A DNA stretch of 64,000 nucleotides, from the NCBI GenBank assembly GCA_036873755.1, contig JAVTVY010018708.1, positions 1 to 64,000 of the forward strand, given 5' to 3'. Every line of letters starts with the position of its first letter. Position 1 is the stretch's first letter. Below the pieces are notes generated by a model. It searched no databases and had not been told where the DNA came from. It worked only from the letters and a program-made list of their open reading frames with translations. Below are positions 18,187-61,349 of the stretch, piece by piece. The translations under genes and the position numbers were made by a program. This stretch comes from Hanleya hanleyi (Eukaryota; Mollusca; Polyplacophora; Lepidopleurida; Hanleyidae).

Positions 18187-18342
18187 ACGTACCTGAGATA
18201 CATCACACATCAGGAATCGTTAGATTCTTGGTACATGTATGTGCTTTAGAATAGGTTAACCGGAAGACTATACTGTGAAGTCATGTGGCTCTGTCAGTAT
18301 GTCGGCACTTCTTCCCACTTCTCTTGTATGTGTTGTAATTCT
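18187..18342 (+). repeat. Inverted family B end (head-to-head with array)
   Basis: Runs from ACGTACCTGAGATAC through CTTGTATGTGTTGTAAT in the opposite orientation to the array on its left. With 17993-18115 it makes an inverted repeat of about 120-130 bp arms around a loop of about 70 bp. Confidence 0.85.
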
Positions 18343-22055: not shown

Positions 22056-23395
22056 CAAGCATCTGGTCCGTCATCCATAATTTAGCCGTCGTCCATTAAA
22101 GAATATCCGCGTCCATAATCCAAAGACCTATTCCACATTCCATATAACAGTATTAGCACCAAATTTAGAAAGACAATCATAGTATACATAAACATAGGCT
22201 AGTTTCCTGCAAGAGAGAAGCGGTCAACAGTTTTCAATGATGCCGGCAAGACATTATGATGTTCCAAAAATATCAAATCCGTGTCGCTGATCAGTATTCT
22301 TAATCCATAATATTCGTTGTAAAGTCGTCATCTAGAGAATGATGTATCTCAGTCACGCATTGGCTGTGACTGTTCGTATGAGTATCATGAGGATCTTGAA
22401 GTACATGGGTTCATACGGCCCCTAGCCCCGGGTTAAACGGAATTAGACACAAGTTACGAAACGTAACACAATAGATCTTGCACGCTACGCTCGTATTTTG
22501 TTATCAGCATGCGACATATATCGCCAAATTTGAGAAACTTTGAGTGGAGGCGCTTGGTGGTATAGCCATGTTTTATAAGTTTGTGCAACAATGTTTTGTG
22601 ACGTTGATTAAAATTGTCACATTTAACACAGGATTTAGCAAATGCTACTAAACGAGATATGTATACGCCATATGCAGGTCCCACTGGAATATTACTGTCC
22701 AGAAAGGGATAGTTTACGATGTCGAAATTGTAATCATCTCTTTTGTCATAAAGTGAATGAGAGAGAAGGCCCGCTTCATTTTTATAGAGATATAGATCTA
22801 AATATGATGTGCCTGTAGGGCTGTAATTTCCTTCAAATCCAGTGAAGGTGGGCATATATCCTTCACAGCGTCATTTATATAGCGATTATCCACAGCGAGA
22901 AGATCGTCTATATAGCGTTTCGTGAATGAGAAGGAACGGGCTTTGAATAGATCGGTTTTTGAAAGCGCCTGCATATAGTCATATTCATAAGAAAACAAAT
23001 ATAGGTCAGCCAACAGGGGTGCACAATTAATACCCATTGGAATACGTATATGCGGTTGATATATTGTTTTGGCAAATTTCACATAGACATTTTTAATGAG
23101 AAATTCAAGCAACTCTATAAACAAAGAACCATCCCATGAATGATATCTCTTGTATGTAGTAGAGCTAAAGAATGCTTTATGGTTTCCTACATTAATATAT
23201 CTACGATCAGTTTTCTTGAACACAGATACAATTAATAAACTTAGACGGCCAATAAGGTCCTGATGATGGATTGTGGTATAGAGAGTTGAGAAATCTCATG
23301 TGGATACATGTCTGTACGGTATGTGACCTTTAGCATCAAGTTCTTCCGTAAGACATTTTGTGTCTGAGTGAAACCCATTCTTTCATGAGAATGTG
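22056..23395 (-). mobile_element. RT element, longest copy in window (one frameshift)
   Basis: Read on the minus strand: FKKTDRRYINVGNHKAFFSS, a YHSWDGSLFIELLEF block, IPMGINCAPLLADLYLFSYE, the catalytic FTKRYIDDLLAVDNRYIND, then the YLDLYLYKNEAGLLS block and the C-terminal LLHKLIKHGYTTKRLHSKFL ... KYERSVQDLLCYVS. YIDD is the RT active-site motif with paired aspartates. A frameshift near 22800-22855 splits it into two frames. The 5' end is truncated before the P-K-HK block. The 3' UTR with module (about 22335-22452) ends at 22056. An intact ORF would exceed 500 codons. PLE affiliation is inferred from the N-terminal blocks of other copies and the tandem arrangement. Confidence 0.88.
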
Positions 23396-23602: not shown

Positions 23603-23949
23603 AAGAAATAGCGTCTAGATTTTAATATTTACATATTTACTGACATAATATGCTCAGAGGAAATTTTTGTGAAAGATACGAAAGTGACGATAACATAATT
23701 GCGTTTCTTTGTGGACGTCTTTCCGAAATTATTGACGTCTTTCCGAAATTATTATTTCATGTATGAAAGCCCCAAAGGCAGTGCTGCATGGTGGTTAATG
23801 AAGCGCTTGATCGGCGTCGGACCTCACATGTATTTGTTCTGAATATGAACTTGGATTCAATAAATACTCTCTCGTTATGGCCGAATTTTAGCATCTTACG
23901 GAAAATTTCATCATTTTCCAACAGATGATTTGAAAGGGCTATAACGCCC

Positions 23950-24055
23950 TGAATTCAATATCGCTCAAGCCGGTGCTAGGGGCCGTGTGGTCATGTCATT
24001 CAATATATTCACATGAACCGCTACAAAATAAGCGTGGCTGGGATACCAATCGTCA
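23950..24055 (+). other. Orphan structured module
   Basis: CAAGCCGGTGCTAGGGGCCG through AAGCGTGGCTGGGATAC keeps the P3 loop-like text with a stem variant (GCTAC with GTGGC) not seen in the three main families. Flanks do not match RT, B or C. Confidence 0.55.
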
Positions 24056-24079: not shown

Positions 24080-24190
24080 TGTTTTAGAAATATGCAGTCA
24101 GTATATTTGTCTGTGGAGTCATATGACTTCTTATCAGTACTCCGCCATCCACCACCCTTTCGATGTTGCGTTTAATTGCGCCAGATGGCA
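24080..24190 (+). repeat. Dispersed repeat E, copy 1
   Basis: AATATGCAGTCAGTATATTT and GTCATATGACTT with flanking text also occur at 42403-42520 next to the 54-bp array. Confidence 0.55.
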
Positions 24191-24879: not shown

Positions 24880-26650
24880 GAAGCAACCCCAAGTGACATC
24901 TCAAGGCATATTATCTGCAAACCAAATTTGACGAGAACCTGAATGCATCCTCAACCTATTGTCCGGAAACCAAATTTTAAATTTGTCATCAGGTGTCGCC
25001 ACCTGTAGGTGCAAGTGGGCAAAACGCAATCCCAAGCATCATCTCATGACATGGTACATGTGTCAGCATACGAACTTTGGGAAGAATCTGAAGAGGGGTC
25101 TTCAAGTTATTGCCCGGAAACCAAATATAGATTTGTGACATCTTATGGCATAAGAATACCAAATTTGAGAAAAATCTGATGAGCAGTTGTCAAATTATTG
25201 CCAGAAATAAATTTCAGATTTTCCCACCAGGTGTCGTCACCAGTATGCAGAAGCAGGCGAAATACAATCCCAAGGGACATATCATTGCATGGTATCTGCA
25301 TACCAAATTGGAGAAAAATCCGATGAGCGAAATCAAATTTAGATTTGACAGGAGGTGGTGCTACCAGTAGGCGCAAGTGGGCGAAATGCAATCCCAAGCG
25401 ACATCATATGTCATGGTATAGTCATACCAAATTTAAGAAGAATCTGACGAGCGGTTCTCAAGTTATTATCCGGAAACATATCTTGTATTTCTTCGCCACC
25501 AGGTGGCACCACCTGTAAGTACAAGTCAGCGAAAGGCAATCCCACGCAAGATCTCTTGGCATGATACGTGCATGCTAAATTTGAGGAGATTCCGATGAGC
25601 AGTTCTCAAGTTAATGGCTGAAAACAAATTTTGATTTTAACACCAGGTGGCGCCACCTATAGGTGCAACATCTTAGGTCATGGTATTACCCGGGGACAAA
25701 TTTGGGATTAAGTTATTGCTTTCAGCACAAAAGAACGGAAAGAACCCTAGTGGCGCCACCTACAGGCAGATCTTTCTGAAACGCAATACCAATCAACATC
25801 TTGTCACAAGGAATGCATATGCCAAATATTGAAGAAACTAGATACAGTCGATCGAATACGATCGAGGAGGCATCCCTTTTGCATCTTTAGTAACAGAAAC
25901 ATTCATTATTTGTGAAGAAAGTAAAAACCTAAAACGTAGAAAAAACATCATTGACATGGCCCCGTAAGATGCCTTGAGGGAAGGTACCCACATACCAAAT
26001 TTAAAATAATCCATTCAGGTCCAACAGTTACTGTCCGGAAATGCAATTTTACCTTGGCCCACAAGTAGCGTCATGTATAGGCAGAAAGGCATAACAAATA
26101 ATCCCAACCGAGATCATGAGGCAAGATCCGTTGACATTGGATATATCAAATGTAAACTTGGCCTACACGTGGCGCCACCTATGAGCAGATCGACAAGAAA
26201 AACAATCCCAAGCGAAACCTTCAGGTAAGGTACATGTATACCAAACTTGGAAAGAATTCATTCAAGTTTTAAAAGTTATTGTCCGGGAACATAATTTTAA
26301 ACTTGCCCCCAGGTGGCGCCACCTATATGTGGATCGGCATGAAAAACAATGCCAAACGAGAAATTGAGGCGAGGTACCTACACATCAAATTTGGAATGAA
26401 TCGGTTCAGGTTTACAAAAGTTATTGTTTAGAAGCATTTAACTTGGCTTTCAGGTGGTCCCCCTATACACGACTCGACATGAATAACATTCTCAAGCCAG
26501 ATCTTGAGGCAAGGTACCCACACACCAATTTTGGAAAGAATCCTTAAGATTTTCAAAACTTATTGTCTGGAGATGCAATTTTAACTCGGCCCCCAGGTGG
26601 CGCCACCCAGAGGCGGATTGGCACGAAAAACAATTCCAAGCAAGATCTAT
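24880..26650 (+). repeat. Degenerate ~145-bp repeat array centred on AGGTGGCGCCACCT
   Basis: Sites related to AGGTGGCGCCACCT lie at about 24991, 25228, 25351, 25501, 25644, 25749, 26059, 26166, 26311, 26451 and 26594. Several gaps are 140-150 bp. Between them recur a CAATCCCAAGCGA block, a TACCAAATTTGA-GAATC block and an AGTTATTGTCCGGAAAC block in fixed order. Short frames through it are by-products. Reverse-oriented pieces lie at 33060-33260 and more distant ones at 28405-28960. Confidence 0.85.
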
Positions 26651-27691: not shown

Positions 27692-27990
27692 ACAATTACA
27701 AGCGTCTAGTCCGTCATTCATAATCCAGCCGTCGTCCATTAGAGAATATCCGCGTCCATAATCCAAAGACCTATTCCATTTTCCACATAACAGTATTAGC
27801 ACCAAATTCAAAAAGACAATCATAGTATACATAAACATAAGCTTGTTTCCTGCAAGAGAGAAGCGGTCAACAGTTTTCAATGATGCCGGCAAGACATCAT
27901 GATGTTCCAGAAATATCAAATCCGTATCGCTGATCAGTATTCTTAGTCCATAATATTCGTTATAGAGTCGTCATCTAAAAAAAAGATGTA
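27692..27990 (-). mobile_element. RT element 3' UTR copy
   Basis: Begins TTACAAGCGTCTAGTCCG and runs to the TGTATCTCAG edge of the module, where it is cut. Confidence 0.88.
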
Positions 27991-28021
27991 TCTCAGCGGC
28001 GTCTCCTTCAGGGGGATCTCG

Positions 28022-28402
28022 CTGATTACAAGCGTGTGGTCCGTCATTCATAATTCAGTCGTCGTCTATTAAAGAATATCCGCGTCCATAATCCAAAGAC
28101 CTATTCCATATTCTATATAACAGTTTTAGCACCAAATTCGAGAAGACAATCACAGCATACATAAACATATACGTGTTTCCTGCAAGAGAGTCGCTGTCAA
28201 CAGTTTTCAGTGATGCCGGCAAGACATCATGATGTTCCAAAAATATCAAATCCATATCGCTGATCAGTATTCTTAATCCCATAATATTCGTTGTAAAGTC
28301 GTGATCTAAAGAATGATGTATCTCAGTCACGCTTTGATTGTGCCTGTTCATATGAGTACCATGAGGTTCTTGAAGTACATGGGTTCATACGGCCCCTATC
28401 CA
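28022..28402 (-). mobile_element. RT element 3' UTR copy with partial module
   Basis: Begins GATTACAAGCGTGTGGTCCG, reaches the module (28317 onward) and is cut at about 28402 inside it, where the 145/175-bp repeat text starts. Confidence 0.85.
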
Positions 28403-28404
28403 CA

Positions 28405-28960
28405 AGGTCGAAATGCAATACCAACCCACGTCTGGTCACAAGGAGTGTATATGCTAAATGTCGAAGGAATCCGACAAAGCGTTTGGAAGTTATCGCCTGT
28501 GAAGAATTTGAACAGACATCCACAGATACAAAGAGACCAAGACCCATTTTTACTGGAACGGACACGACGAAGCGAAACTCAGTGGCGCTACCTTCAGGCA
28601 GATGTTGCTGAAATGCAGTAGTAACCGGCGTCTTGTCGCAAGATATGCGTATGCCGAATTTCGGGAGAATCCGACGAAGCATTTGGACGTTATCACTTAT
28701 GAAAATTTTTAACAGGTGTCCACGGACGCAGAGAAGCAAGACCAATTTTGATCCAGTGGCGCCACCGTCAGCCAGATGTTGCTGAAATGCAATACCAACT
28801 GATGTCTTGTCGCAGAGAATGCGTATGCCGAATTTCGGAAGAACCCAGCAAAGCGTTTGGAAGTTATCGCTTGCGGAAAATTCAGGCAGGCATGCACGGA
28901 CATACATTTGTACACAGACATCCACGGACGTCCACGGACACAAAGAAGCAAGAACCATTT
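28405..28960 (+). repeat. Diverged ~175-200-bp tandem repeat
   Basis: ATGCGTATGCCGAATTTCGG occurs at about 28645 and again 176 bp later, with a third, weaker copy about 200 bp earlier. Each is followed by GCGTTTGGAAGTTATCGC-like text and a CCACGGAC/CACAGA run. GTGGCGCCACC-like centres at 28580 and 28754 link it to the 145-bp family. Confidence 0.75.
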
Positions 28961-30012: not shown

Positions 30013-31878
30013 GGACCTCGCACGTTAAGGTGGACAAACCGCCCCAGGTGAGGTACGATTGTAGATGAAAAATGAAACTTAAAATATGAAATGCTCGTCA
30101 CGATTAGCATAAAATATGACATTTTTGTGAACTCTCTTTGAAATATTGGGAGCATGAGTGCCATGGTTTTTCAACAATACCTCTCTAAAGTGGTAGGTTT
30201 GTGTGAAATTGACAGTTTTGGGGTGAAAAAGCACGGTTTGCCTATCTGTAAATATATGAAGATAAACTATACCACAAAAATATTCACACAAAACAGTCCT
30301 CTTTGGAATCCCTAGTTGTTCAACAAAGCACGTTTTGGTTATCGTTTATCTTCATATAAAAAAATGAAACTTTATGGAATATTGGTTTTGGTCATTTGGT
30401 GTTCAATTTCAAATACGATTATTAGAGGAATGTTATATGTACGAGTACGAGTGGCCGAATGGATAGAATCGCGGGAAGAGTTATCGTTATTAGAGGAATG
30501 TTATATGTACGAGTACGAGTGGCCGAATGGATAGAATCGCGGGAGGAGTTATCGTTATTAGAGGAATGTTATATGTACGAGTACGAGGTGGCCGAATGGA
30601 TAGAATCGCGGGAGGAGTTATCGTTATTAGAGGAATGTTATATGTACGAGTACGAGGTGGCCGAATGGATAGAATCGCGGGAGGAGTTATCGTTATTAGA
30701 GGAATGTTATATGTACGAGTACGAGTGGCCGAATGGATAGAATCGCGGGAGGAGTTATCGTTATTAGAGGAATGTTATATGTACGAGTACGAGTGGCCGA
30801 ATGGATAGAATCGCGGGAAGAGTTATCGTTATTAGAGGAATGTTATATGTACGAGTACGAGTGGCCGAATGGATAGAATCGCGGGAGGAGTTATCGTTAT
30901 TAGAGGAATGTTATATGTACGAGTACGAGTGGCCGAATGGATAGAATCGCGGGAGGAGTTATCGTTATTAGAGGAATGTTATATGTACGAGTACGAGTGG
31001 CCGAATGGATAGAATCGCGGGAGGAGTTATCGTTATTAGAGGAATGTTATATGTACGAGTACGAGTGGCCGAATGGATAGAATCGCGGGAGGAGTTATCG
31101 TTATTAGAGGAATGTTATATGTACGAGTACGAGTGGCCGAATGGATAGAATCGCGGGAGGAGTTATCGTTATTAGAGGAATGTTATATGTACGAGTACGA
31201 GTGGCCGAATGGATAGAATCGCGGGAGGAGTTATCGTTATTAGAGGAATGTTATATGTACGAGTACGCGTGGCCGAATGGATAGAATCGCGGGAGGAGTT
31301 ATCGTTATTAGAGGAATGTTATAAGTACGAGTACGAGTGGCCGAATGGATAGAATCGCGGGAGGAGTTATCGTTATTAGAGGAATGTTATATGTACGAGT
31401 ACGAGTGGCCGAATGGATAGAATCGCGAGAGGAGTTATCGTTATTAGAGGAATGTTATATGTACGAGTACGAGTGGCCGAATGGATAGAATCGCGGGAGG
31501 AGTTATCGTTATTAGAGGAATGTTATATGTACGAGTACGAGTGGCCGAATGGATAGAATCGTGGGAGGAGTTATCGTTATTAGAGGAATGTTATATGTAC
31601 GAGTACGAGTGGCCGAATGGATAGAATCGCGGGAGGAGTTATCGTTATTAGAGGAATGTTATATGTACGAGTATATATATATGGCACGAAGATATCATAT
31701 AACAGCATCAATTTAATAAGAGGAAAAACGATGTAAACCCACGAGTAAAATATGCTTGGCCTTGCAAACCGCGCTCTCGGCTGTCATCCCGAATCCATTC
31801 AATTCCACTGGAGGCACGTGATGCGCTGTGAATAGACTGCTCGCCGGGGCCGTTTGTCCATCTTATCGTACAAGGTCC
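30013..31878. mobile_element. Spy-like TIR transposon, no target duplication
   Basis: The 33-bp ends match as inverted repeats at 28 positions (left GGACCTCGCACG, right read inwards GGACCTTGTACG; both continue TGGACAAAC). The RT consensus at the site is CTCAAATTTGGCG. Here CTCAAA stands left of the element and TTTGGCG right of it, so the element sits exactly between AAA and TTT with no duplication. That is the defining target behaviour of Spy transposons. No transposase frame is present, so it is non-autonomous; its interior is mainly the 68-bp minisatellite. Confidence 0.8.
30425..31673 (+). repeat. 68-bp minisatellite, 18 units
   Basis: Units begin GAGGAATGTTATATGTACGA and end GGAGTTATCGTTATTA. 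Sixteen are 68 bp and two (with an extra G, GAGGTGGCC) are 69 bp. A 23-bp partial unit closes the array. Sequence identity between units is very high, with single changes at a few sites (for example GTACGCGTGG, ATAAGTACG). The period is not a multiple of three, so it does not encode a repeat protein. Confidence 0.97.
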
Positions 31879-32347
31879 TTTGGCGATACATATCGCGCGC
31901 TGATAGCAAAATACGAGCGTAGCGTGCAAGGTCTATGGCGTTACGTTTCGTAACTTGCGTCTAATTCTGCTTAACCCGGGGCTGGGAGCCGTATAAACCC
32001 ATGTACTTCAAGATCCTCATGGTGCTCATATGGAGAGGCACAATCAAAGCGTGACTGAGATACATCATTCTCTAGATGACTTTACAACGATTATTATGGA
32101 TTAAGAATACTGATCAGCGATACGGATTTTATATTTTTGGAACATCATGATGTCTTGTCGGCATCATTGAAAACTGTTGACCGCTTCTCTCTTGAAGGAA
32201 ACTAGCCTATGTTTATGTATACTATGATTGTCTTTTTGAAGGTGTTGCTAATACTGTTATATGGAATAAGTCTTTGGATTATGGACGCGGATATTCTCTA
32301 ATGAACGACGGCTGAATTATGAATGATGGACTAGACGCTTGTAATTT
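31879..32347 (+). mobile_element. RT element 3' half, right part
   Basis: Continues the copy at 29728: the ORF tail (RALIAKYERSVQGLWRYVS) ends at a TAA, followed by the 3' UTR with module (about 31955-32065) and terminus GACGCTTGTAA. Confidence 0.9.
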
Positions 32348-33599: not shown

Positions 33600-33985
33600 T
33601 TTTCGTTGTAAAGTCGATATCCTGAGAATGATTTATCTCAGTCACGCTTTGATCGTGTCTGTTCCTGTGCACACCGTGAGGATCTGGAAGTTCTTGGGAT
33701 CAAATTGCTCTTGACCTGGGTTAAGCAGAATTAGACACAAGTTACGAAATGTAACGCCATAGATCTCGCACGCTATTCTCGTATTTTGGTATTCGCAAGT
33801 GATTTGTATTGCCAAATTTGAGAAAATTGAGTGGAGGCGCTTGATGATATTGTCATGTTTTCTGCAATACTGTTTTGTGACGTTGATTAAAATCGTCAGA
33901 TTTCACACAGGATCTAGCAAATGCTACTAGGCGTGATATATATATATGCCTAAATGCAGGTCCCACTGGAATATTACCGCAGAAA
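33600..33985 (-). mobile_element. RT element 3' fragment, reverse
   Basis: The module (about 33630-33738) and the ORF end up to GGTCCCACTGGAATATTAC; the frame is disrupted. The far end of the 3' UTR is missing. Confidence 0.8.
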
Positions 33986-34019: not shown

Positions 34020-34140
34020 CCGAATCACTTTCTAGAATGTTACATCTCAGTCACGCTAAGCATAAACATCTCATACTACAAGATGTTATACGACCCCTAG
34101 CTCCAGCGGAAGTAGACGTTAGTTACGAAACGTAATATTG
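34020..34140 (-). other. Decayed module fragment
   Basis: ACATCTCAGTCACGCTAAGC and CGACCCCTAGCTCC, next to ACGAAACGTAAT, are the module and ORF end of an old RT copy. P3 no longer pairs. Confidence 0.5.
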
Positions 34141-34474
34141 TGGTAGGCAGCGTGTTCACCAGTATCTGTACTTGTAGCTAGCGGGAAATCACTTCGTTGA
34201 GGATATGTAGGAAGTGTCGTTAATGATTAGAGAGCTGAGTTGCTGAGCGAAGGGAGGTTCAAGGGAGGGAATTGGTCATCGGGGATTGGGATGGCAGTTC
34301 TTCATGATGGGGGGGAGCGAGTGTTGTGGGAAGCGGATTCACCAGTGCCTGTACAACATTAAAATGATGGTGAAAATCGTTGTCGGAGTAGAGACAATAC
34401 CCCACAGACAAATAGACGGACTGCATATTTCAAAAACATCACAAGAACCAAAAGTGATCCCTGTGCTGTTTTGT

Positions 34475-34570
34475 ACCCCCAGCCCCGCCTTTATTGTAGC
34501 TGTTCATTTGGGCATATCGAACGGCATGACCACGCGACCCTAACAGCAACTTGGGCGGTATTAGATACAA
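34475..34570 (-). other. Decayed module fragment (family C or B type)
   Basis: CCTTTATTGTAGCTGTTCAT through GGGCGGTATTAGATAC retains the loop and one P1 strand. Confidence 0.5.
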
Positions 34571-38564: not shown

Positions 38565-40098
38565 CTGAAAGATAGAATATACAACAGGTATTCCTTGCAG
38601 TCGTGATACACAAAAATTGATGCAACACATTGTTGGTATGCCTCATTGTTATATTGTTCAGTCTCGGAAGGTATAGCACAGGGAGACAACAGGTTATTAA
38701 GTCATAAATGTCAGCAGTGGACGCTTCCAAACTGAACAAGGTAATTGCCAGACTCGTGTTGCCAGACTGATGTTGCCTGAACACCACCCAGATGCGGGTG
38801 GAGGTGGGAAGAGGGGACAAATTGCCCCCCCCCCCGCCCCCCCTGGAAACATTTTGCTGTGATCCCGAGATTAAAACTTTTTGATGTTGTAGTTTGTTGC
38901 ATTGGAGTCGTTATGGAGATGGAGTTATTATTTGTCATAAAAATACGAAGCCCCTTGAGAAATTCTGAAGAGCATATTGTTTTATATTATTTTTGAATTC
39001 CTTGCCTTCAACTCTCCTCAAGGCACACTAAACAAATTTCTTGAAAGAATAACATTCTTTTAATATACTTAACAGACAAGAGAAACAGAGAAAAAATCAT
39101 ACGCCACGACGTGCATGTATCTGTTATAATTGATCCTTAATGAAATGCATGTAACTAATTAAAACCACTGTTTCCGCTTACTCAAAATAGATCAGACCAT
39201 TATCATTAAATTACAAGTGCTCTTTCAAGTATATGTTATATAGTGTTTATCTGCAAGCTTGCGACATGAAATCGACAAAAACAAAACTAGACTTGTTTAT
39301 TTAAATGCCAACAGGTGTACACAACATCAGTGGAGCCTTAGTGTAATGACTACAGCGCCCCCTGATCTATCGTGAGATACATGTACGTGATACTGGTCTG
39401 CTTAACTAGTAAACAAGTTAACACCTTTTAGTTCACCAGGGAAAATATGCCCTGATTGGCATACGTGTTGTCCAGCATGGCCGAAAGGAGGGGGGTGTAT
39501 CACACAATCTTTGCACTCAGTACATATCAAATAAGACTCCATTTGGTAACTAGCCTATGATGTCCATTTTTTTTGCCCTTCCAAATTCGGCATATGGTTT
39601 GTCCAGGATGGCTTGGGAGTACAGAATAGTTACATTCCGCGCATATTAATTATGTCTTAGCGAGATGTCCATTGTTTTGACTTATGGGCGGTTATTTCTA
39701 TGGAAGTTTCCACTAAACTTGACCTACGTTTCGTGCAGTATGCACCGAAAGGGATATTACAGAATCGTTGCAAATTTTTCAAAATAAGCTGATTTTTCTA
39801 ACAAAACTACCCAGACATCTCAAAAGGGGATAAAGATCAACGAAAGACAAAACAGAATCATTTATGCGTGTTTACTGATGGTTCGATAGTGTGATAGTAC
39901 TGACCAAATATTGCCATTTTAGATTCAAAGGTTGGAGGGGGCAAAGTGCTCCCGAGGTAGAAAATTATGCCCCTGGAATCCCCCAACATTTCCTCTTATT
40001 CACCTTCAACAAATAGGAAACTTGTAAATGGATAATAAATTAGCATCGAAATAATATTCCTTATCCCCACCCCGATTCTCCTATGTATTCAGTGTTAT
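38565..40098. other. No gene seen
   Basis: A C-run (38826-38842) and unremarkable AT-rich DNA. It would be intron if exon 47075-47495 joins 38564. Confidence 0.4.
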
Positions 40099-41065
40099 GG
40101 TATTCAAATGGGTACTGATTGTGCACCCCTGTTCGTCGACCTATATCTGTTCTCTTATGAATATGACTATTTGCAGGCGCTTTCGAAAACCGATCCATTC
40201 AAAGTCCGTTCTTTCTCATTCTCCAAACGCTATATAGACGATCTTCTCGCTGTGGATAATCGCTATATCAATGACGCAGTGAAGGATATATATCCAACTT
40301 CACTGGATTTGAAGGAAACTACAGATAGCCCTACAGGCACATCATATTTGGACCTATATCTCTATGAAAATGAAGCGGGTCTTCTCTCTTGTCGACTTTA
40401 TGACAAAAGAGATAATTACAATTTCGACATTGTAAACTATCCCTTTCTAAACAGTAATATTTCAGTGGAACCTGCATATGGCGTATACATATCTCGCCTA
40501 GTAGCATTTGCTAGATCCTGTGTCAAATATGACGCTTTTAATCAACGTCACAAACACTGTAACAGAAACTCATAAAACAGAGTTTCTCAAATTTGACGAT
40601 ACATATCGCATGCTGATGGCAAAATACGAGCGTAGCGTGCAAGATCTATGGCGTTACGTTTCCTAACTTGTGTCTAACTCCGCTTACCCCGGGGGTAGGG
40701 GCCGTATGAACCCATATTCTTCAAGATCCTCATGGTGTTCACATGAACAGTCACAATCAAAGCGTGACTGAGATACACCATTCTCTAGATGACGACTTTA
40801 CAGCGAATATTATGAATTCAGAATACTGATCAACGATACGGATTTGATATTTTTCGAACATCATGATGTCTTGCTGGCATCATTGAAAACTGGTGACCGG
40901 TTTTCTCTTGCAGGAAACTAGCATCTGTTCATGTATACTATGAGTGTCTTTTTGAATTTGGTGATAATACTGTTATATGAAATATGGAATAGGTCTTTGG
41001 ATTATGGACGCGGATATTCTTCAATTATTATGAATTATGAATGACGGACCAGACGCTTGTAATAC
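40099..41065 (+). mobile_element. RT element 3' half with catalytic motif
   Basis: The frame 40108-40575 reads MGTDCAPLFVDLYLFSYEYD, KRYIDDLLAVDNRYINDAVK and continues to the CVKYDAFNQRHKH block, where a deletion and frameshift remove the LLQKLIKQGY part. It resumes at about 40577 (FLKFDDTYRM-like) to a TAA-bearing end, then the module (40669-40777) and a 3' UTR ending GACGCTTGTAA. The P3 stem of this copy is a perfect 7 bp. Confidence 0.9.
40669..40777 (+). other. Structured module, RT-3'UTR type (reference copy)
   Basis: P1 TGTGTCT (40669-40675) pairs with AGATACA (40771-40777). P3 CAGTCAC (40748-40754) pairs with GTGACTG (40764-40770) around loop AATCAAAGC. P2 CGTATGA-type pairs with TCATATG-type in sister copies (here one base has changed). 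The module starts right after the RT stop codon. Confidence 0.7.
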
Positions 41066-42116: not shown

Positions 42117-42386
42117 TTGATGTCGTGTGAGTACTATTGTAGGATATCTGCCATTTGTAGGATACACAAAATAATGTCGTGTGAGTACTATTGTAGGATA
42201 TCTGCCATTTGTAGGATACACAAAATGATGTCGTGTGAGTACTATTGTAGGATATCTGCCATTTGTAGGATACACAAAATGATGTCGTGTGAGTACTATT
42301 GTAGGATATCTGCCATTTGTAGGATACACAAAATAATGTCGTGTGAGTACTATTGTAGGATATCTGCCATTTGTAGGATACACAAA
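42117..42386 (+). repeat. 54-bp tandem repeat, 5 units
   Basis: Five nearly identical 54-bp units (TGTCGTGTGAGTACTATTGT...GATACACAAAATGA). As 54 is divisible by three, frames on both strands stay open (18-residue repeat MSCEYYCRISAICRIHKM on plus, a different one on minus). Within each unit TTGTAGGATA occurs twice. Confidence 0.95.
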
Positions 42387-42402: not shown

Positions 42403-42520
42403 TTTTAGTTGGCATATTTTTATAAATATGCAGTCAGTATATTTGCCATATGAGGTCATATGACTTTTTGTCAGTACGCCGGGCTTTTTTTCCACCACCT
42501 CCCTTGTTACGTTGCTTTTC
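42403..42520 (+). repeat. Dispersed repeat E, copy 2
   Basis: Same AATATGCAGTCAGTATATTT ... GTCATATGACTT text as 24080-24190. Confidence 0.55.
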
Positions 42521-44290: not shown

Positions 44291-44925
44291 CAAGCGTCTG
44301 GCCCGTCATTCATAATTCAGCCGTCGTCCATTAGAGAATATCCGCGTCCATAATCCAAAGACCTATTCCATATTCCATATTCCGTATAACCGTATTAGCA
44401 CCAAATTCAAAACGACAATCATAGTATACATAAACATAGGCTTGTTTCCTGCAAGAGAGAAGCGGTCAACAGTTTTCAATGATGCCGGCAAAACATCATG
44501 ATGTTCCAAAAATATCGCTGATCAGTATTCTTAATCCATAATATTCGTTGTAAAGTCGTCATCTAAAGAATGATGTATCTCAGTCACGCTTTGATTGTGA
44601 CTGTTCATATGAGTACCATGAGGATCTTGAAGTACATGGGTTCATACGGCCCCTAGCCCCGGGTTAAGCGGAATTAGACACAAGTTACGAAACGTAGCGC
44701 CATAGATCTTGCACGCTACGTTCGTATTTTGCTATCAGCATGCGATATGTATCGCCAAATTTGAGAAACTTTGAGTGGAGGCGCTTGGTGGTGTAGCCCT
44801 GTTTTATAAGTTTCTGCAACAATGTTTTGTGACGTTGATTAAAATCGTCACATTTAACACAGGATCTAGCAAATGCTACTAGGCGTGATATGTATACGCC
44901 ATATGCAGATCCCACTGGAATAATT
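44291..44925 (-). mobile_element. RT element 3' fragment, well preserved
   Basis: From the terminus TTACAAGCGTCTGGCCCG through a 3' UTR, a module with perfect P3 (about 44578-44690), the stop hairpin and an intact C-terminal frame (GSAYGVYISRLVAFARSC to DLWRYVS) to 5' truncation at about 44925. Confidence 0.92.
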
Positions 44926-48874: not shown

Positions 48875-49605
48875 AAGCGTCAGATCCGACATTCAATATT
48901 CAGCCGTCGTCCATAAAAGAATTTTTGCATCAATATTCGAAATATCTATTTAGCATGATATCACCAATTCCAAATGTGTATGAAACAAATAATAATAATA
49001 ATAATAGCACCAGGTTTCCTACAAGAGAGAGCGGTCAACAGTTTTCAATGATGTCAGCAAGACAACTGATGTTATTTGCATGAATCCTAAACACTGACCA
49101 ATATTCTTTATTCAAATGAATTTTCAAGTGGTTCTCCAGAGTGGTTCTCCAGAGTGGTTCTCAGGTAAGCTTTGATTATCACTGTTTATTTGAACACCGT
49201 GGAGATGTAAAATACAGGATATTCAAACGGCCCCTAGCCCCGGGTTAAGTGGAATTAGATACCAGTTACGAATCGAAGCGCCAGAGATCTTGCACGCTAC
49301 GATCGTATTGTTGCCGTCAGTATACAATATTTATCGCAGAATTTGGAAAACTGCGAATGGCGGCGTTTGGTGATATAACTCTGTTAGAATATTATTACAG
49401 AAGCTTGTCAGTGTCGTTGATCGAAATCGTCGCAGTCTGCACATAATCAAGGAAATGCGACCAGGCGAGATATATATATACGTCATGTGGAGCTCCTTCT
49501 GGAATAATCCTCTCCAGAAATGGATTGTTAACTATGTCAAAATTGTAATCGTCTATCTTGTCGTAGAGTTGACGCGAGAGAAAGCCCTGATCATTCTTGT
49601 TAACC
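48875..49605 (-). mobile_element. RT element 3' fragment, diverged subfamily
   Basis: Starts GCGTCAGATCCGACATTCAA, includes an (AAT)n run at about 48989, a diverged module (about 49153-49260) and the ORF end, with the frame still reading QLYDKIDDYNFDIVNNPFLE. More diverged than other copies, close to the fragments at 12688. Confidence 0.75.
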
Positions 49606-52532: not shown

Positions 52533-52880
52533 CATGCAAGAGGTGGGAAAAATTGACGACGTCTGGCGACTAAAAAGCAACCATATGATTCTACAGGAAA
52601 GCTTCCCTCAGTACCCCTCATTCAGACCAGGGCGTCGCCTTAGTATCTCAACCGCGCTTTTATTGCAGCTGTTCATGTAGAGACAATGTAGTATCCACAC
52701 GGCCCCTAGCACCGGCTTAAGCGGAATTGGATACTCATCTGATGTTAATGGATGAGCATCGTGGACGTCTGATGAAGTAACCGCCTCAACATGGGGTAAA
52801 ACTGGTAAATGCAAGAATACCCAGGAAAGCTAACCTGTAATGGCCGACGTCGTATGGATTAAACTTCCCACCAGAACAAT
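52533..52880 (-). mobile_element. Family C element (copy A)
   Basis: ATGCAAGAGGTGGGAAAAAT to GTCGTATGGATTAAAC, with the module in minus orientation (about 52645-52737). It sits between the LINE ORF1 and ORF2 remnants. Confidence 0.85.
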
Positions 52881-52943: not shown

Positions 52944-53630
52944 TCATGTACATTTAATCAAAGATCTTCTGGTCTGGCTTTGCTGATACTTTTTATGATC
53001 TTCCCGCATCTGCTTTATATCTTTGTCTTTTTCGCCATAAATTTCTTGTTCTTTCTTCTGCTCATGTTTCTCTGTCGACCTCTGGTTTAAGGAAGAATTG
53101 TCGGGTCGCTCATTATCACAAGGTTTCTTCATGTGTTTAGCAACCAGGCTATATTCTGGGGTGAATTTCGTAGGTGTAGCTGTGTTGGGAATGGAACTAT
53201 CATCTTCCCCTTCACCCTCTTGTTCATCTCCCATGGATAGTTCATCAACTTCATCTCTTGTGAGCTTAACAATCAGAACAGCATCTGGAGTGAAGTTCAA
53301 GCTACCATCAGAATGCACAAATGTATGATCACTACGACTGTGGATCCACAATATTAGCAGACTCATTGATTTGAAACTCCGGATGATCTAGCAAAGCATC
53401 CGTACTTTCTAGCGGTTTATTCTCCTTGCAAGGTGGGCTAAGAATATCAATGGAATTATTAACACCTTTCTCATCACCGGGAACTGAAAATCGGTTTAGG
53501 CTCTTAGATGCATTTCGCTTTGCCCCTGACCAAGCCTAGAATTTTATTATGGGGGCCCTGCCATCAGGACCTACAATTGACCTAATACTTTCGCCCACGC
53601 TTTCACACTGCTCGACTGACTGTGCCTTGC
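52944..53630 (-). pseudogene. Probable LINE ORF1 C-terminal remnant (copy A)
   Basis: The frame 52944-53366 is highly charged: KLTRDEVDELSMGDEQ, PEYSLVAKHMKKPCDNERPD, then a lysine/glutamate-rich tail ending SQTRRSLIKCT. It continues upstream in another frame (PGDEKGVNNSIDILSPPCKE). The position directly before ORF2 on the same strand suggests the end of the LINE ORF1. No zinc knuckle is left here. The assignment is inferred from position. Confidence 0.5.
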
Positions 53631-53631
53631 C

Positions 53632-54484
53632 GACATCATTGAAAACTGTTGACCGCTTCTCTCTTGCAGGAAACAAGCCTATGTTTATGTATATACTATG
53701 ATTGTCTTTTTGAATTTGATGCTAATGCTGTTATATGGAATATGGAATAGGTCTTTGGATTATGGACGCGGATATTCTCTAATGGACGACGGCTGGATTA
53801 TGAATGACGGACTAGACGCTTGTAATTTATTCCGAGAAGGGAGTTCTCCACAACGGGAGACTTCTGGCATTGAATGCATGTGGATATTGAAAAAATCAAA
53901 ATGTCTGACGGAAGAACTTGATGCTAAAGGCCACATACCGTACAGACATGTATCCACATGGGCTTTCTCGACTGTCTATAGTACAATCCTTCATCAGGAC
54001 CTTATTGTCCGCCTTACTTCAATAACAGTATCGGTGTTCAAGAAAACTGACCGCCGATATATTAGTGCCAGAAGCCATAAAGCGTCCTTTAGCTCTACTA
54101 CGTACATACAAGGGATATCATTCATGGTATGTTTCTTTGTTTATAGAGTTGCTCGAATTTCCCATTAATAATATCTATGTGAAATTTAGCAACGCAAGAT
54201 ATCAACAGCATATAGGAATTCCAATGGGTACTAATTGTACACCCCTCTATCTGTTCTCTTATGAATACAACTATATGCAGACGCTTTCAAAAACAGATTT
54301 TTCAAAGCCCGTTCCAGCTTATTCACCAAACGCTATATATAGACGATCTTCTTGCTGTGGATAATCGCTATATAAATGACAAAGTGAAGGATATATATCC
54401 ACCTTCACTGGATTTGAAAGAAACTGCAGATGGCCCTAGCGGCACATCTCATTTATACCTATATCTCTATAAAAATGAAGCGGC
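53632..54484 (+). mobile_element. RT element pieces: 3' UTR end then central RT (copy A)
   Basis: 53632-53825 is the 3' UTR end (GACGCTTGTAA). It is followed at once by a central RT part with CMWILKKSKCLTEELDAKGH, a STVYSTILHQDLI block, IGIPMGTNCTPLYLFSYEYN (short deletion inside) and, after frameshifts, YIDDLLAVDNRYINDKVKDI. The copy stops at LYLYKNEA, where family B begins. Confidence 0.85.
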
Positions 54485-54903
54485 CCACTTCCCTTATATG
54501 TGTTGTAATTTTTTTTACCTGTATACGGCGCGATTCTGCTGGTGGACGTTTCGTCCCCGAGGCCCGCCTCCTGTGCAGACTTTTCGGCCTTTGATATATG
54601 TTAGGATTTGTGGGAAGTTGATGCTGGGTCGATATTGAGCCTTACAGACTAGTCTGTTGTGTTAAATGCCGTCATTTTCATCTGACGACGATACAGCTCA
54701 CCAATACCCAGTGTACGAGTTGTCACAGCGAAACAGCTCACCAATTACCAATGTACGAGTTGTCAGAGCATTTCCATCATAGCTCTCTAGATTTGTATGT
54801 AATACCGCTTATGCCGGTGCTAGGGGCCGTGTTGTCATATCATCCAAGTAGCCACATGAACAGGTACAATAAAAGCGTACCTGAGATACAACACATATCC
54901 CGA
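54485..54903 (+). mobile_element. Family B piece in RT-sense orientation (copy A)
   Basis: CCACTTCCCTTATATGTGTT continuing over the unit boundary into ACCTGTATACGGCG, the GGACGTTTCGTCC hairpin and the module with a perfect P3 (about 54802-54889). Cut at the duplication junction. Confidence 0.85.
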
Positions 54904-55224
54904 AGCTCCCTAGGTCAAGTGGTAAGAAAAATAATTAGGGTGGGGGCGGAGGGGGGAGGGGGGCATTTCGCCTCCCCCCGGCCAGGATAGGTCCCAAAAA
55001 GCGCAACCCAGATAGTGTTAATGTATGGGTGCAGATATGATGTTAATCTGGGCTATAATTTGCCATATTGTTAGTGAGATATTCAAGCAACTCTGTAAAC
55101 AAAGAAACAACACAAGAATGTTCTCTTTTACGCGCTGTAGACTTGGAGGAGAATTATGGTATAACGTCGCGTTTAGCAATATTTCAACTGTATATCGAAC
55201 AAAAATTCTGATCTAAGATCTCCA

Positions 55225-57091: not shown

Positions 57092-57949
57092 TTACAAGCG
57101 TCTAGTCCGTCATTCATAATGCAGCCGTCGTCCATTAGAGAATATCCGCGTCCATAATCCAAAGACCTATTCCATATTCCATATAACAGTATTAGCACCA
57201 AATTAAAAAAGACAATCATAGTATACATAAACATAGGCTTGTTTCCTGCAAGAGAGAAGCGGTCAACAGTTTTCAATGATGCCGGCAAGACATCATGATG
57301 TTCCAAAAATATCAAATCTGTATCGCTGATCAGTATTCTTAATCCATAATATTCGTTGTAAGGTCGTCATCTAAAGAATGATGTATCTCAGTCACGCTTT
57401 GATTGCGCCAGTTCATATGAGTACCATGAGGATCTTGAAGTGCATGGGTTCATACGGCCCCTAGCCCCGGGTTAAGCGGAATTAGACACAAGTTACGAAA
57501 CGTAGCGCCATAGATCTTGCACGCTACGTTCGTATTTTGCTATCAGCATGCGATATGTATCGCCAAATTTGAGAAACTTTGAGTGGAGGCGCTTGGTGGA
57601 ATAGCCCTGTTTTATAAGTTTCTGCAACAATGTTTTGTGACGTTGATTAAAATCATCACATCTATCACAGGATCTAGCAAATGCTACTAAGCGAGATATG
57701 TATACGCCATATGCAGGTTCCACTGGAATATTACTATCCAGAAAGGGATAGTTTACGATGTTGAAATTGTAATCATCTCCTTTGTCATAAAGTCGACGAG
57801 AGAGAATTCCCGCTTCATTTTTATAGAGATAGAGATCTAAATAAGATGTGCCTGTAGGGCTATCTGTAGTTTCCTTCAAATCCAGTGAAGGTGGATATAT
57901 ATCCTTCACTGCGTCATTTATATAGCGATTATCCACAGCGAGAAGATCG
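57092..57949 (-). mobile_element. RT element, 5'-truncated insertion with TCTAA duplication
   Basis: Flanked by TCTAA at 57087-57091 and 57950-57954; copy A has the uninterrupted site. On the minus strand it starts inside the YIDDLL codons (DLLAVDNRYINDAVKDIYPP), keeps an open frame to KYERSVQDLWRYVS, then has the module (about 57381-57490) and a 3' UTR to the terminus. The 211-codon frame 57493-58128 is a chimera of LINE endonuclease start plus this RT end, created by the insertion. It is a dated, recent insertion and gives the element's true 3' end. Confidence 0.93.
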
Positions 57950-57954
57950 TCTAA

Positions 57955-58130
57955 AGCATAGGAATCATAAGGTGTATATTGCCGTAATTCAAATGTATAT
58001 TTATCTGTTTCTTTGAGAATATTCTCATTCAAACAACTAGCTGAGGGTTCATACTTCTGAACTAACAACTGAAACTCATTTAAATTTGGCCAAACTGCTC
58101 TGCAGATGAGGGTTGGAAACGGAACCATTT
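57955..58130 (-). pseudogene. LINE ORF2 endonuclease start (copy B)
   Basis: From 58128: MVPFPTLICRAVWPNLNEFQ, LLVQKYEPSASCLNE, NILKETDKYTF. This matches the usual opening of I-type ORF2 (WNCRG...N..EL...CLQET..K), with several signature residues altered. It reads on into the inserted RT element. Confidence 0.75.
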
Positions 58131-58151
58131 TAGTCTATATAAAGAAATTGG

Positions 58152-58490
58152 AGCGATATGCAAGAAGTGGGGAAAATTGACGACGTCTGGCGACTAAAAA
58201 GCAACCATATGACTCTACAGGAAAGCTTCCCTCGGTACCTGACATTCAGACCAGGGCGTCGCCTTAGTATCTCAACCGCGCTTTTATTGCAGCTGTTCAT
58301 GTAGAGACAATGTAGTATCCACACGGCCCCTAGCACCGGCTTAAGCGGAATTGGATACTCATCTTATGTTAATGGATGAGCATCGTGGACGTCTGATGAA
58401 GTAACCGCCTCAACATGGGGTAAAACTGGTAAATGCAAGAATACCCAGGCAAGCTAACCTGTAATGCCCGACGTCGTACGGATTAAACTT
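58152..58490 (-). mobile_element. Family C element (copy B)
   Basis: TTGGAGCGATATGCAAGAAG to GTCGTACGGATTAAAC, with the module at 58267-58358. P3 here is CAGCTGC with GCGGTTG (two G-U pairs in RNA). Confidence 0.87.
58267..58358 (-). other. Structured module, family C type (reference copy)
   Basis: Minus strand: P1 GTATCC (58353-58358) with AGATAC (58267-58272). P2 CGTGTGG with CTACATG. P3 CAGCTGC (58289-58295) with GCGGTTG (58273-58279) around loop AATAAAAGC. P3 abuts P1 with no gap. Confidence 0.65.
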
Positions 58491-59150: not shown

Positions 59151-59233
59151 ATTATGGGGGCCCTGCCATCAGGACCTACAATTGACCTAATGTTTTCGCC
59201 AACGCTTTCACACTGCTCGACTGACTGTGCCTT

Positions 59234-60084
59234 GCCGGCATCATTGAAAACTGTTGACCGCTTCTCTCTTGCAAGAAACAAGCCTATGTTTATGTATACT
59301 ATGATTGTCTTTTTGAATTTGGTGCTAATACTATTATATGGAATATGGAATAGGTCTTTGGATTATGGACGCGGATATTCTTTAATGGACGACGGCTGGA
59401 TTATGAATGACGGACTAGACGCTTGTAATTTATTCCGAGAAGAGAGTTCTCCACAACGGGAGACTTCTGGCATTGAATGCATGTGGATATTGAAAAAATC
59501 AAAATGTCTGACGGAAGAACTTGATGCTAAAGGCCACATACCGTACAGACATGTATCCACATGGGCTTTCTCGACTGTCTATAGTACAATCCTTCATCAG
59601 GACCTTATTGTCCGCCTTACTTCAATAACAGTATCGGTGTTCAAGAAAACTGATCGCCGATATATTAGTGCCAGAAGCCATAAAGCGTCCTTTAGCTCTA
59701 CTACATACATACACGGGATATCATTCATGGTATGTTTCTTTGTTTATAGAGTTGCTCGAATTTCCCATTAATAATATCTATGTGAAATTTAGCAACGCAA
59801 GATATCAACAGCATATAGGAATTCCAATGGGTACTAATTGTACACCCCTCTATCTGTTCTCTTATGAATACAACTATATGCAGACGCTTTCAAAAACAGA
59901 TTTTTCAAAGCCCGTTTCAGCTTATTCACCAAACGCTATATATAGACGATCTTCTTGCTGTGGATAATCGCTATATAAATGACAAAGTGAAGGATATATA
60001 TCCACCTTCACTGGATTTGACAGAAACTACAGATCGCCCTAGCGGCACATCTTATTTATACCTATATCTCTATAAAAATGAAGC
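59234..60084 (+). mobile_element. RT element pieces (copy B)
   Basis: Counterpart of 53632-54484 with the same frameshifts and internal short deletion, then family B at the same base. The shared junction shows the RT/B fusion predates the duplication. Confidence 0.87.
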
Positions 60085-60837
60085 GGCCCACTTCCCTTAT
60101 ATGTGTTGCAATTTTTTTTACCTGTGTACGGCGAGATTCTGCTGGTGGACGTTTCGTCCCCGAGGCCCGCCTCCTGTGCAGACCTTTCGACCTTTGATAT
60201 ATGTTGGCATTTGCGGGAAGTTGATGCTGGGTCGACATTGAGCCTTACAGACTATAAATGCCGTCATTTTCATCTGACGACGATACAGCTCACCAATACC
60301 CAGTGTACGAGTTGTCACTGCGAAACAACTCACCAATTACCAATGTACGAGTTGTCAGAGCATTTCCATCATAGCTCTCTAGATTTGTATGTAATACCGC
60401 TCATGCCGGTGCTAGGGGCCGTGTGGTCATATCATCCAAGTTGCCACATGAACAGGAACAAACTAGGATGAAAGTAACTCCGAAAATGGAAGTCATTGTG
60501 ATAAAATATTCTATATTTCGGCTGTGCTTATGCCATCATCAGGTATACATATGTATTCCTGATGATGGCATAAGCACAGCCGAAATATAGAATATTTTAT
60601 CACAATGACTTCCATTTTCAGAGTTACATTCATCCTAGTTTATGTGAAATTGATCTGTGGGAATAATGGATTTTGAACAGGTACAATAAAAGCGTACCTG
60701 AGATACAACACATATCCCGAATCGGTAGATTCTTGGTATGTGCTTTAGAATAGGTTAACCGGAAGACTATACTGTGAAGTCATGTGGCTCTGTCAGTATG
60801 TCGGCACCTCTTTCCGCTTCCCTTATATGTGTTGTAA
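60085..60837 (+). mobile_element. Family B unit, interrupted by foldback (copy B and flank)
   Basis: In RT-sense orientation; contains the hairpin GGACGTTTCGTCC, the module (outer part at about 60391, P3 at 60676-60698 after the foldback) and ends GTGTTGTAAT at 60837. The foldback splits the module between P2 and P3. Confidence 0.87.
60457..60673. mobile_element. Near-perfect foldback element, 8-bp target duplication
   Basis: TGAACAGG stands at 60449-60456 and 60674-60681. Within, 60461-60543 and 60558-60640 are 83-bp arms that pair with very few mismatches around ATACATATGTAT, itself a palindrome, so about 180 bp form one uninterrupted dyad. An extra 33 bp (TTATGTGAAATTGATCTG onward) lie on the right only. 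8-bp duplications are typical of hAT elements. No coding sequence. Confidence 0.9.
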
Positions 60838-61349
60838 TTTTTTACCTGTATATGGCGAGATTCTGCTGGTGGACGTTTCGTCCCCGAGGCCCGCCCCCTG
60901 TGCAGACCTTTTGGTCTTTGATATATGTTGGCCTCTGTGGGAAGTTGATGCTGGGTCGACATTGGGCCATACAGACTAGTCTGTTGTGTTAAATGCCGTC
61001 ATTTTCATCTGACGACGATACAGCTCACCAATACCCAGTGTACGAGTTGTCACAGCGAAACAGCTCACCAATTACCAATGTACGAGTTGTCAGAGCATTT
61101 CCATCATAGCTCCCTAGATTCGTATCTAATACCGCTTATGACGGTGCTAGGGGCCGTGTGCTCATATCATCCAAATTGCCACATGAACAGGTACAATAAA
61201 AGCGTACCTGAGATACAACACATATCCCGAATCGTTAGATTCTTGGTATGTGCTTTAGAATAGGTTAACCGGAAGACTATACTGTGAAGTCATGTGGCTC
61301 TGTCAGTATGTCGGCACCTCTTCTCGCTTCCCTTATATGTGTTGTAATT
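60838..61349 (+). repeat. Family B complete unit
   Basis: From TTTACCTGTATATGGCGAG to CTTATATGTGTTGTAAT (512 bp), with the hairpin, two ACGAGTTGTCA short repeats and a module with perfect P3. It ends at the B terminus exactly where an RT fragment begins. Confidence 0.9.
61122..61216 (+). other. Structured module, family B type (reference copy)
   Basis: P1 GTATCT (61122-61127) with AGATAC (61211-61216). P2 CGTGTGC with GCCACATG-type (sister copies CGTGTGG with CCACATG). P3 CAGGTAC (61188-61194) with GTACCTG (61204-61210) around loop AATAAAAGC. Confidence 0.7.

Follow-up and report, generated by a model that had tools for sequence, protein, structure and literature searches.

A predicted base-paired RNA module shared by a reverse transcriptase element and three apparently non-coding repeat families

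An RNA module of about 100 nt (95-110 nt across copies) occurs 29 times within one 64-kb window, the whole stretch of DNA that was analysed. It stands in sense orientation behind the coding fragments of a reverse transcriptase (RT) element and recurs in three further repeat families, B, C and D, all of non-coding appearance. The part that the RT element has in common with these families has restricted bounds, pairing is kept within it, and the RT, B and C copies have repeated 3' ends downstream of it. The observation, recorded by a first-pass annotation at 40669-40777 (forward strand), is confirmed as genuine and extends further than first described. In the reading that we favour, which has about an even chance of being right, the module would be an RNA docking domain common to the RT element and its non-autonomous partners, much as the hammerhead is common to other Penelope-like elements (PLEs) and to retrozymes. 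It may serve as a tag or processing signal for the copying of the elements.

Parts, bounds and copies of the module

The letters of the window at 40669-40777 agree with the sequence reported for them, and all the parts named by the first-pass annotation, namely P1, P2, P3, an AA linker between P2 and P3 and the direct abutment of P3 on P1, are present in alignment A2. This alignment consists of 22 rows, 21 of them distinct, and leaves out the damaged copies at 60385, 34040 and 7336 from the 25 first listed. In the annotated copy the RT stop codon (40664-40666) is followed by 3 nt and then by P1; P2 is present as claimed, with an A.C mismatch at its fourth pair, and P1 contains a G.U pair. The features of this copy are as follows, P0007 being the 362-residue metagenomic homologue that served as tblastn query:

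40100-40666, forward strand: RT coding remnant; residues 161-316 of P0007 align by tblastn at 40090-40554, and the match then goes out of frame
40670-40675, forward strand: 5' strand of P1, GTGTCT, 3 nt past the stop codon (A2 columns 3-8)
40676-40702, forward strand: conserved joining strand J1/2; 21 of its 27 columns do not vary among the four family consensuses
40703-40709, forward strand: 5' strand of P2, from alignment A2
40739-40745, forward strand: 3' strand of P2, with one A.C mismatch in this copy
40746-40747, forward strand: AA linker, both columns identical in the four consensuses
40748-40770, forward strand: P3 hairpin CAGTCAC / GTGACTG, with its loop AATCAAAGC at 40755-40763
40771-40776, forward strand: 3' strand of P1, AGATAC, immediately after P3
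40777-41063, forward strand: 3' region of the RT element, ending in ...GACGCTTGTAAT

The loop of P2 has 5 of 30 columns identical in the four consensuses. The P3 loop AAT(A/C)AAAGC, said to be present always, is common but not universal, as 8 of the 28 rows with a P3 loop deviate from it; the occurrence of T-A, G-C and C-G at the fourth position of P3 was verified. When at most two mismatches are allowed, the core CCGCTTANNCCGG has 25 matches in the 64-kb window against 4.6 expected, a number reached by none of 100 shuffles, and the loop AATMAAAGC occurs there 20 times against 1.9 expected.

Copies were first collected by pattern; 22 went into a covariance model, which at E<=1 returned 30 matches, 22 by construction and 8 further. 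Among the eight, two belong to a single copy that an insert has divided, four (28316, 7336, 14023 and 34040) are damaged or truncated, and two (33631 and 34471) are complete; apart from the three damaged copies already listed, the other five of the eight came to light later. The 29 copies comprise 13 of RT type, 9 of B, 5 of C and 2 of D. The RT, B and C families named by the annotation thus all carry the module, while its total of three falls short by the family D, with members at 23949-24048 (forward) and 34471-34570 (reverse). The remaining copies are:

57381-57491, reverse strand: RT type, behind the longest RT open reading frame (57493-58134)
44573-44683, reverse strand: RT type; its RNAfold centroid consists of P1, P2, P3 and an extension of P2
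6414-6524, forward strand: RT type, by the covariance model
63353-63463, reverse strand: RT type, by the covariance model
22342-22452, reverse strand: RT type, by the covariance model
16118-16228, forward strand: RT type, by the covariance model
31955-32065, forward strand: RT type, by the covariance model
61662-61772, forward strand: RT type with decayed P1, by the covariance model
49154-49264, reverse strand: divergent RT type with U-A at a covarying P2 pair, by alignment and covariance model
33631-33740, reverse strand: RT type, detected by the covariance model only
28316-28423, reverse strand: RT type without its 5' part, by covariance model and blastn
34040-34121, reverse strand: deleted copy, RT type by eye, with a 5' flank like the RT C-terminus
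16424-18182, reverse strand: head-to-tail array of B units, with the low ends of the modules at 18098, 17553, 17046 and 16539 (spacing 545, 507 and 507)
54793-54891, forward strand: B type, within a B insert interrupting an RT open reading frame, by the covariance model
60385-60708, forward strand: B type, split by a palindromic insert of about 200 bp into matches at 60385-60465 and 60590-60708
61120-61218, forward strand: B type; the B unit ends at 61348 and the interrupted RT open reading frame then resumes
8258-8356, reverse strand: B type, by the covariance model
14023-14138, reverse strand: B type, 5' truncated inside the module, by covariance model and blastn
58265-58360, reverse strand: C type, by the covariance model
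52641-52736, reverse strand: C type, by the covariance model
5072-5167, forward strand: C type, by the covariance model
10167-10262, reverse strand: C type, by the covariance model
7336-7418, reverse strand: C type with a deletion across P2, by the covariance model
23949-24048, forward strand: D type, the fourth family
34471-34570, reverse strand: D type, second member, detected by the covariance model only

Sharing between the families was compared on one representative copy each, taken as the module with 100 nt on either side. Between the RT element and B, C or D the module aligns with z 9.9-13.4 and 76-82% identity, and the 100-nt flanks give z -0.9 to 1.3; blastn searches started from each family likewise confine the similarity to the module. 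Among the non-RT families the downstream flank gives z 4.8 (B-D), 3.1 (B-C) and 1.7 (C-D). By eye, B, C and D have in common a further downstream hairpin, AGTCATRTGRYT, and a tail, for example at 61268-61348, 5228-5302 and 24115-24160, and each seems to have, between the module and AGTCATRTGRYT, hairpins of its own that differ in sequence. With this downstream part in common, B, C and D may belong to a single superfamily instead of representing three separate captures. With the RT element they share the module, and B and C also a few terminal bases. Sequence resembling the D tail occurs without a D module at 42418-42481 (forward strand), near a 54-bp tandem repeat at 42120-42386. Exact matches to the module numbered none in prokaryotic genome contigs and none in viral contigs, the predicted proteins spanning a translated C module gave no candidate, and the accessible portions of the literature yielded no description of such a module.

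Conservation of the pairing

Pairing in alignment A2 was counted over P1, P2, P3 and a four-pair helix to which the joining strand contributes GCTT and the P3 loop AAGC. Of these 504 cells, 89.1% are paired against 84.9 +- 0.7 in shuffles, none of 500 of which reaches the observed value (21 distinct rows). Cells changed on both sides number 35 against 14.6 +- 4.0 expected, and the covariation score is 0.221 against 0.147; neither is reached in 500 shuffles. When the partner strands are slid by 1-3 columns, pairing is found in just 22-52% of the cells. Two other measures do not exceed the shuffles: pairs with double changes number 6 (two in P2, three in P3 and one in P1), which is reached by 53 of 500 shuffles and compares with 5-9 in the slid versions, and further pair types number 23, reached by 172 of 500. 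A variant with the outer P1 pairs and a CCG/CGG hairpin in place of GCTT/AAGC has 85.0% pairing. The GCTT/AAGC pairs are each formed in 20-22 of the 22 rows; among six row changes there, five disrupt the pair and one is retained as G.U. The joining strand offers two alternative local folds, CCG/CGG and GCUU/GGGC, both nearly invariant, and it may form a fourth hairpin with two pairings in competition.

Unaided, RNAalifold recovers the greater part of P1, P2 and P3 from the complete 22-row alignment, at a weak energy of -7.4 kcal/mol. Applied to the four family consensuses, in which the decay of single copies is averaged out, it recovers P1, P2, P3 and the joining-strand hairpin de novo, at -27.3 kcal/mol against a mean single-sequence energy of -30.6 (SCI 0.89, z -7.15, reached by 0 of 300 column shuffles). 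The RT, B and C consensuses alone give z -6.95, with the SCI reached by 1 of 300 shuffles. In minimum-energy folds of the single consensuses, RT and B have P1, P2 and P3, C has P1 and P2, and D has P2 only. Among eight single copies, four have minimum-energy folds with all of P1, P2 and P3, and the z-scores run from -2.52 to +0.07.

The substitutions between consensuses were compared with the same changes placed randomly into the paired columns. From RT to B there are 9 changes, yet 20 of 20 pairs are kept, four of them by compensation (P 0.0002 for pairs kept and 0.0004 for compensatory changes). In the same order, P is 0.008 and 0.016 from RT to C, 0.027 and 0.018 from B to C, 0.043 and 0.018 from B to D, and 0.114 and 0.046 from C to D; from RT to D, 18 of 20 pairs are kept (P 0.069 and 0.059). 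For P2 and P3 only, the values are 0.004 and 0.0008 from RT to B, 0.070 and 0.014 from RT to C and 0.055 and 0.038 from B to C, and every comparison involving D lies above 0.1.

The covariation test named by the annotation was imitated with a tree-based null, using the 30 matches minus five damaged ones (24 distinct rows), 20 pairs and 150 alignments simulated on a FastTree tree. No pair is significant, an outcome that the annotation had named as refuting its claim: the best structure pair has E 0.22, and the 40 strongest column pairs all lie outside the structure. This outcome is probably due to the small number of independent lineages, about four, which leaves little power. The statement that pairing is kept while the sequence changes is thus borne out by the paired cells, the RT-to-B substitutions and the de novo fold, and is not borne out by the two count measures or the tree-based test; what had been called the hallmark of a selected RNA structure has its basis in a few events between families.

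The reverse transcriptase element and the ends of the elements

In tblastn with P0007, all nine RT fragments that reach at least residue 357 of the query have the module just 3' of them on the sense strand. The RT fragments of the window show differing degrees of decay in the same search. All the RT copies are fragments, and neither an intact RT element nor its 5' end was identified in the window, which is eukaryote-like and repeat-rich.

A first protein search gave 66 relatives among 158 candidates, and a profile search counted as relatives 7300 of the 8000 sequences scored, of which 120 are listed. No relevant Pfam family matched the RT open reading frames of the window, and no PDB relative of the RT was found by sequence. 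Several homologues contain RVT_1, among them P0007 at E 2.4e-7. PF26215 is given to some homologues by database annotation, and was absent from our own scans of P0056, P0067 and P0070. The homologue P0123 has a ubiquitin hydrolase domain, and the metagenomic homologue P0089 has about 80 extra residues after the RT (with SACLVINP), which the RT family of the window, ending at the module, seems to be without. RT relatives were confirmed neither in prokaryotic genome contigs (23 stretches with the pattern) nor in three scans of viral contigs (5, 51 and 0 stretches).

By its motifs, the RT of the window looks like that of a PLE with a C-terminal RT, of Naiad type. Such Naiad-type (N-terminal-endonuclease) PLEs are not known to carry hammerheads; Craig et al. 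reportedly described Naiad in 2021 as PLEs with an N-terminal endonuclease. A YIDD-type box is recognisable in 144 of 173 homologues, and the remainder C-terminal to it has a median of 153 residues (quartiles 150 and 215), which is short for a C-terminal GIY-YIG domain; GIY-YIG was not seen in the nine long homologues scanned. The likeness to Naiad-type elements lies in the RT as C-terminal domain and in a C-x-C before the RT, followed by G[DN]L, in two of the four homologues with at least 350 residues before the GIPMGT box. The difference is that no endonuclease domain was seen in a set where most homologues, like the RT copies of the window, are fragments.

Downstream of the module, RT, B and C copies end in repeated sequences. 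Termini were located by pattern, so that agreement within the pattern is partly built in and the informative feature is the divergence of the flanks there. Ten of the 14 matches to the RT terminus end in ...CTTGTAAT, those at 53806 and 59409 being duplicates of one flank, and the others end in GTATT (10547 and 10611), GTAAC (63083) and TTAAT (9967). Six of the 12 B matches continue into another B unit, and the other six, with unlike flanks, all end in ...GTTGTAAT. The C terminus is ...CCAAT in four of five copies, the copy at 52.6 kb diverging earlier. The distance from module to terminus is about 112-139 nt in B and C and 287-292 nt in the RT element.

The B array has one module per 507-bp unit, at spacings of 545, 507 and 507 bp. 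It occupies 16424-18346 together with an inverted partial B copy at its head (18184-18346, forward strand), and the 5' ends of the array and of the inverted copy meet within the module at GCTT/AAGC, a junction resembling microhomology. Two tandem 3' ends of the RT element with a period of 330 lie at 27695-28401 (reverse strand), the second beginning in the module at CTGAGATAC after a short insert. An RT open reading frame carries a B insert near residue 258 of P0007, and does so at two positions that are duplicates of each other (RT at 53854-54485 and 59457-60088); the insert starts with the last 24 or so bases of the B unit, a self-overlap, and the interrupted RT resumes at 61350. The regions 53623-54904 and 59228-61350 are a duplicated composite of an RT-element 3' end and a 5'-truncated RT open reading frame with the same B insert at the same codon. 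The palindromic element of about 200 bp at 60460-60680 (forward strand) lies within a B module and has the interrupted sequence, GAACAGGWACAA, on either side; Rfam models of miRNA precursors give matches to the element that fall short of their cutoffs, presumably an effect of its being a long hairpin. A 68-bp tandem repeat with 18.4 copies, 98% identical, occupies 30419-31673.

Possible functions

An RNA fold common to an RT element and three seemingly non-coding families is most simply read as one recognised by the mobilising machinery, and this sharing narrows the role in RT recognition, processing or 3'-end choice that the annotation had proposed as conjecture. The module would act in cis as an RNA domain made up of the closing P1, the conserved strand, P2, AA and P3 abutting P1, and is the predicted site at which the element's own RT/endonuclease protein grips the RNA. 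B, C and D would then be candidate non-autonomous partners with the same tag, dependent on this RT and copied in trans. What a SINE has in common with its LINE is the region recognised by the RT of the autonomous element. As in such shared 3' tails of SINEs and LINEs, a short region upstream of the 3' terminus is common here to an autonomous element and several otherwise unlike ones; the case differs in a partner RT of Penelope-like appearance, in a common region that folds into several stems, and in the end of the module about 112-292 nt ahead of the terminus. Counted for docking were the confinement to the module of the similarity between the RT element and B, C and D, the pairing kept across families, and the RT and B termini, which are of the same kind (...CTTGTAAT and ...GTTGTAAT). 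Counted against it were the tree-based covariation result, the C and D consensus folds without P3 (D also without P1), the downstream sharing among B, C and D and the fragmentary state of the RT copies.

For an anole PLE studied in vitro, the consulted portions of the report place both RNA binding and the initiation of reverse transcription in a structured internal stretch of the RNA, describe the hammerhead as dispensable for insertion in vitro, and state that it was not seen to cleave in the absence of protein (PMC11167929). These results were counted for docking. The sites of binding and initiation are close to each other in that PLE, as far as that account goes, whereas here the distance from module to terminus varies by family, which also counts against docking. 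Open questions of the field are how PLEs choose their RNA, why most of them keep a hammerhead not needed in vitro, and what substitutes for it in relatives without one; a module with defined bounds offers a small RNA for work on binding by the RT/endonuclease and on self-cleavage, and a search model for partners elsewhere.

The main rival to docking, unlikely but the best of the alternatives, is a new self-cleaving ribozyme in the hammerhead's place, which would cut tandem transcripts to unit length; the unit RNAs might be ligated into circles and reverse transcribed, as has been proposed for animal retrozymes. It owes this rank to the distribution of the module, which resembles that of type I hammerheads, found together in PLEs and in tandem non-autonomous retrozymes according to the portions consulted (PMC7761336; PMC7229834). 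The likeness extends to a compact junction RNA with an open-ended closing helix in an untranslated part of the PLE, shared with small tandem non-autonomous elements of one genome; the module differs in being without the CUGANGA/GAAA core and without an Rfam match, and in its size of 95-110 nt. The B units, tandem with one module (putative ribozyme) each, might correspond to animal non-LTR retrozymes, which are small non-coding tandem repeats with one ribozyme per unit, and differ from them in a unit of 507 bp against the roughly 170-400 nt given in the part of the source available (PMC7229834) and in the absence of a type I hammerhead by Rfam from the window. The self-overlap of the B insert is such as might come from copying round a circle or along a multimer, the nearly invariant bases of the joining strand and the closing P1 resemble features of ribozymes, and the lack of an Rfam hammerhead in the window itself speaks for a replacement. 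Against a ribozyme, five copies that start within the module do so at five different places, with no single cleavage site (blastn and by eye), and such starts account for about 2 of some 15-20 RT fragments and 3 of about 6 B fragments by eye; an apparent excess of 5' truncations within the module is not convincing. Tandem arrays and overlaps of PLEs also arise free of ribozymes, as the consulted part of the anole study indicates (PMC11167929). That the module is an undescribed class of ribozyme replacing the hammerhead in C-terminal-RT PLEs, B, C and D being the retrozymes that go with it, is marginally less probable than the ribozyme reading at large; if true, the partnership of PLEs and retrozymes would be independent of the type of ribozyme.

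Comparison with known RNA classes bears on the same point. The annotation's statement that the module does not match the hammerhead core holds, and a hammerhead was rejected: the CUGANGA block is missing from intact modules and Rfam finds no hammerhead in the window. Strings of the form CTGANGA-N4-30-GAAA have 18 matches in the window against 4.7 expected; one (61734-61771) overlaps the decayed module at 61662, two lie within the insert splitting the copy at 60385, and three stand in diverged repeats at 25088-25476. Non-circular permutations of the hammerhead exist, according to the available part of one source (PMC10085705). The Rfam search that the annotation had proposed as a check gave no ribozyme at E<=10 on one RT, one B and one C copy, a result against the ribozyme reading, and three listings below cutoff, SECIS_1, CRISPR-DR24 (E 3) and ST7-OT3_4 (E 9.2); over the whole window at E<=5 it gave six matches, none on a module. 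A hairpin-ribozyme match at 39070-39126 (forward strand; 26.7 bits where the cutoff is 65, E 0.66) is weak and probably due to chance. ARAGORN (bacterial settings) found no tRNA in the window and Rfam none either, and a tRNA or tRNA-derived SINE was rejected. By eye, UAAUNCNGC after P1 and AUAAAAGCG before the return strand of P1 give what we take to be a superficial likeness to twister. Twister and the other small ribozymes were compared through the consulted portions of their published descriptions (PMC5408937; PMC6154101), in which twister is defined by P1, P2, P4, pseudoknots T1 and T2 and conserved L1/L4 (PMC5408937). Twister was rejected on the order of its helices and on the Rfam result for the three copies: the strand before the P1 return pairs in the module with its neighbour, as P3, where twister has a P4 loop.

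It is improbable that the module works at the level of the mRNA, by affecting how the RT message is stabilised, exported, translated or formed at its 3' end, and that its presence in B, C and D is a relic of their descent from such an element. The position of P1 3 nt past the stop codon in the examined copy and the sense orientation in nine of nine RT fragments reaching the module speak for it. Against it, B, C and D look non-coding and keep the module while the rest of them no longer aligns with the RT element, which suggests selection there too.

A little less probable again is the absence of any selected RNA structure, the stretch being kept by descent or recombination with pairings partly due to chance. 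It would fit the tree-based null with its roughly four lineages, the two count measures and the slid versions with equal or more double-change pairs, the z-scores of -2.52 to +0.07 with four of eight folds complete, and the 22-row energy of -7.4 kcal/mol. It fits poorly with the SCI of 0.89 for the four consensuses (0 of 300 shuffles), the RT-to-B substitutions (P 0.0002 and 0.0004) and a module 76-82% identical between flanks that do not align.

A SECIS-like kink-turn element for selenocysteine is very improbable. The arrangement AUGAA-[stem]-AAUMAAAGC-[stem]-AGAU has, we assume, some resemblance to the SECIS core, and some Naiad elements encode selenoproteins. SECIS was rejected on the Rfam search: SECIS_1 matches the C copy only, weakly (13.2 bits where the cutoff is 35; E 5.9 over 126 bases), and neither the RT nor the B copy searched. 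The bases of the quartet are required by P1 and P2, the stops in the P0007 tblastn alignments stand opposite residues other than cysteine, and B, C and D look non-coding.

That the module is a small mobile DNA element with the inverted repeat GTATCT/AGATAC, inserted into four families, is just as improbable: similarity does stop at P1 on both sides, but the module has a similar place and orientation in each family, its P2 and P3 arms show compensatory differences from family to family, and all 29 copies, 34040 by eye only, are assigned to a family.
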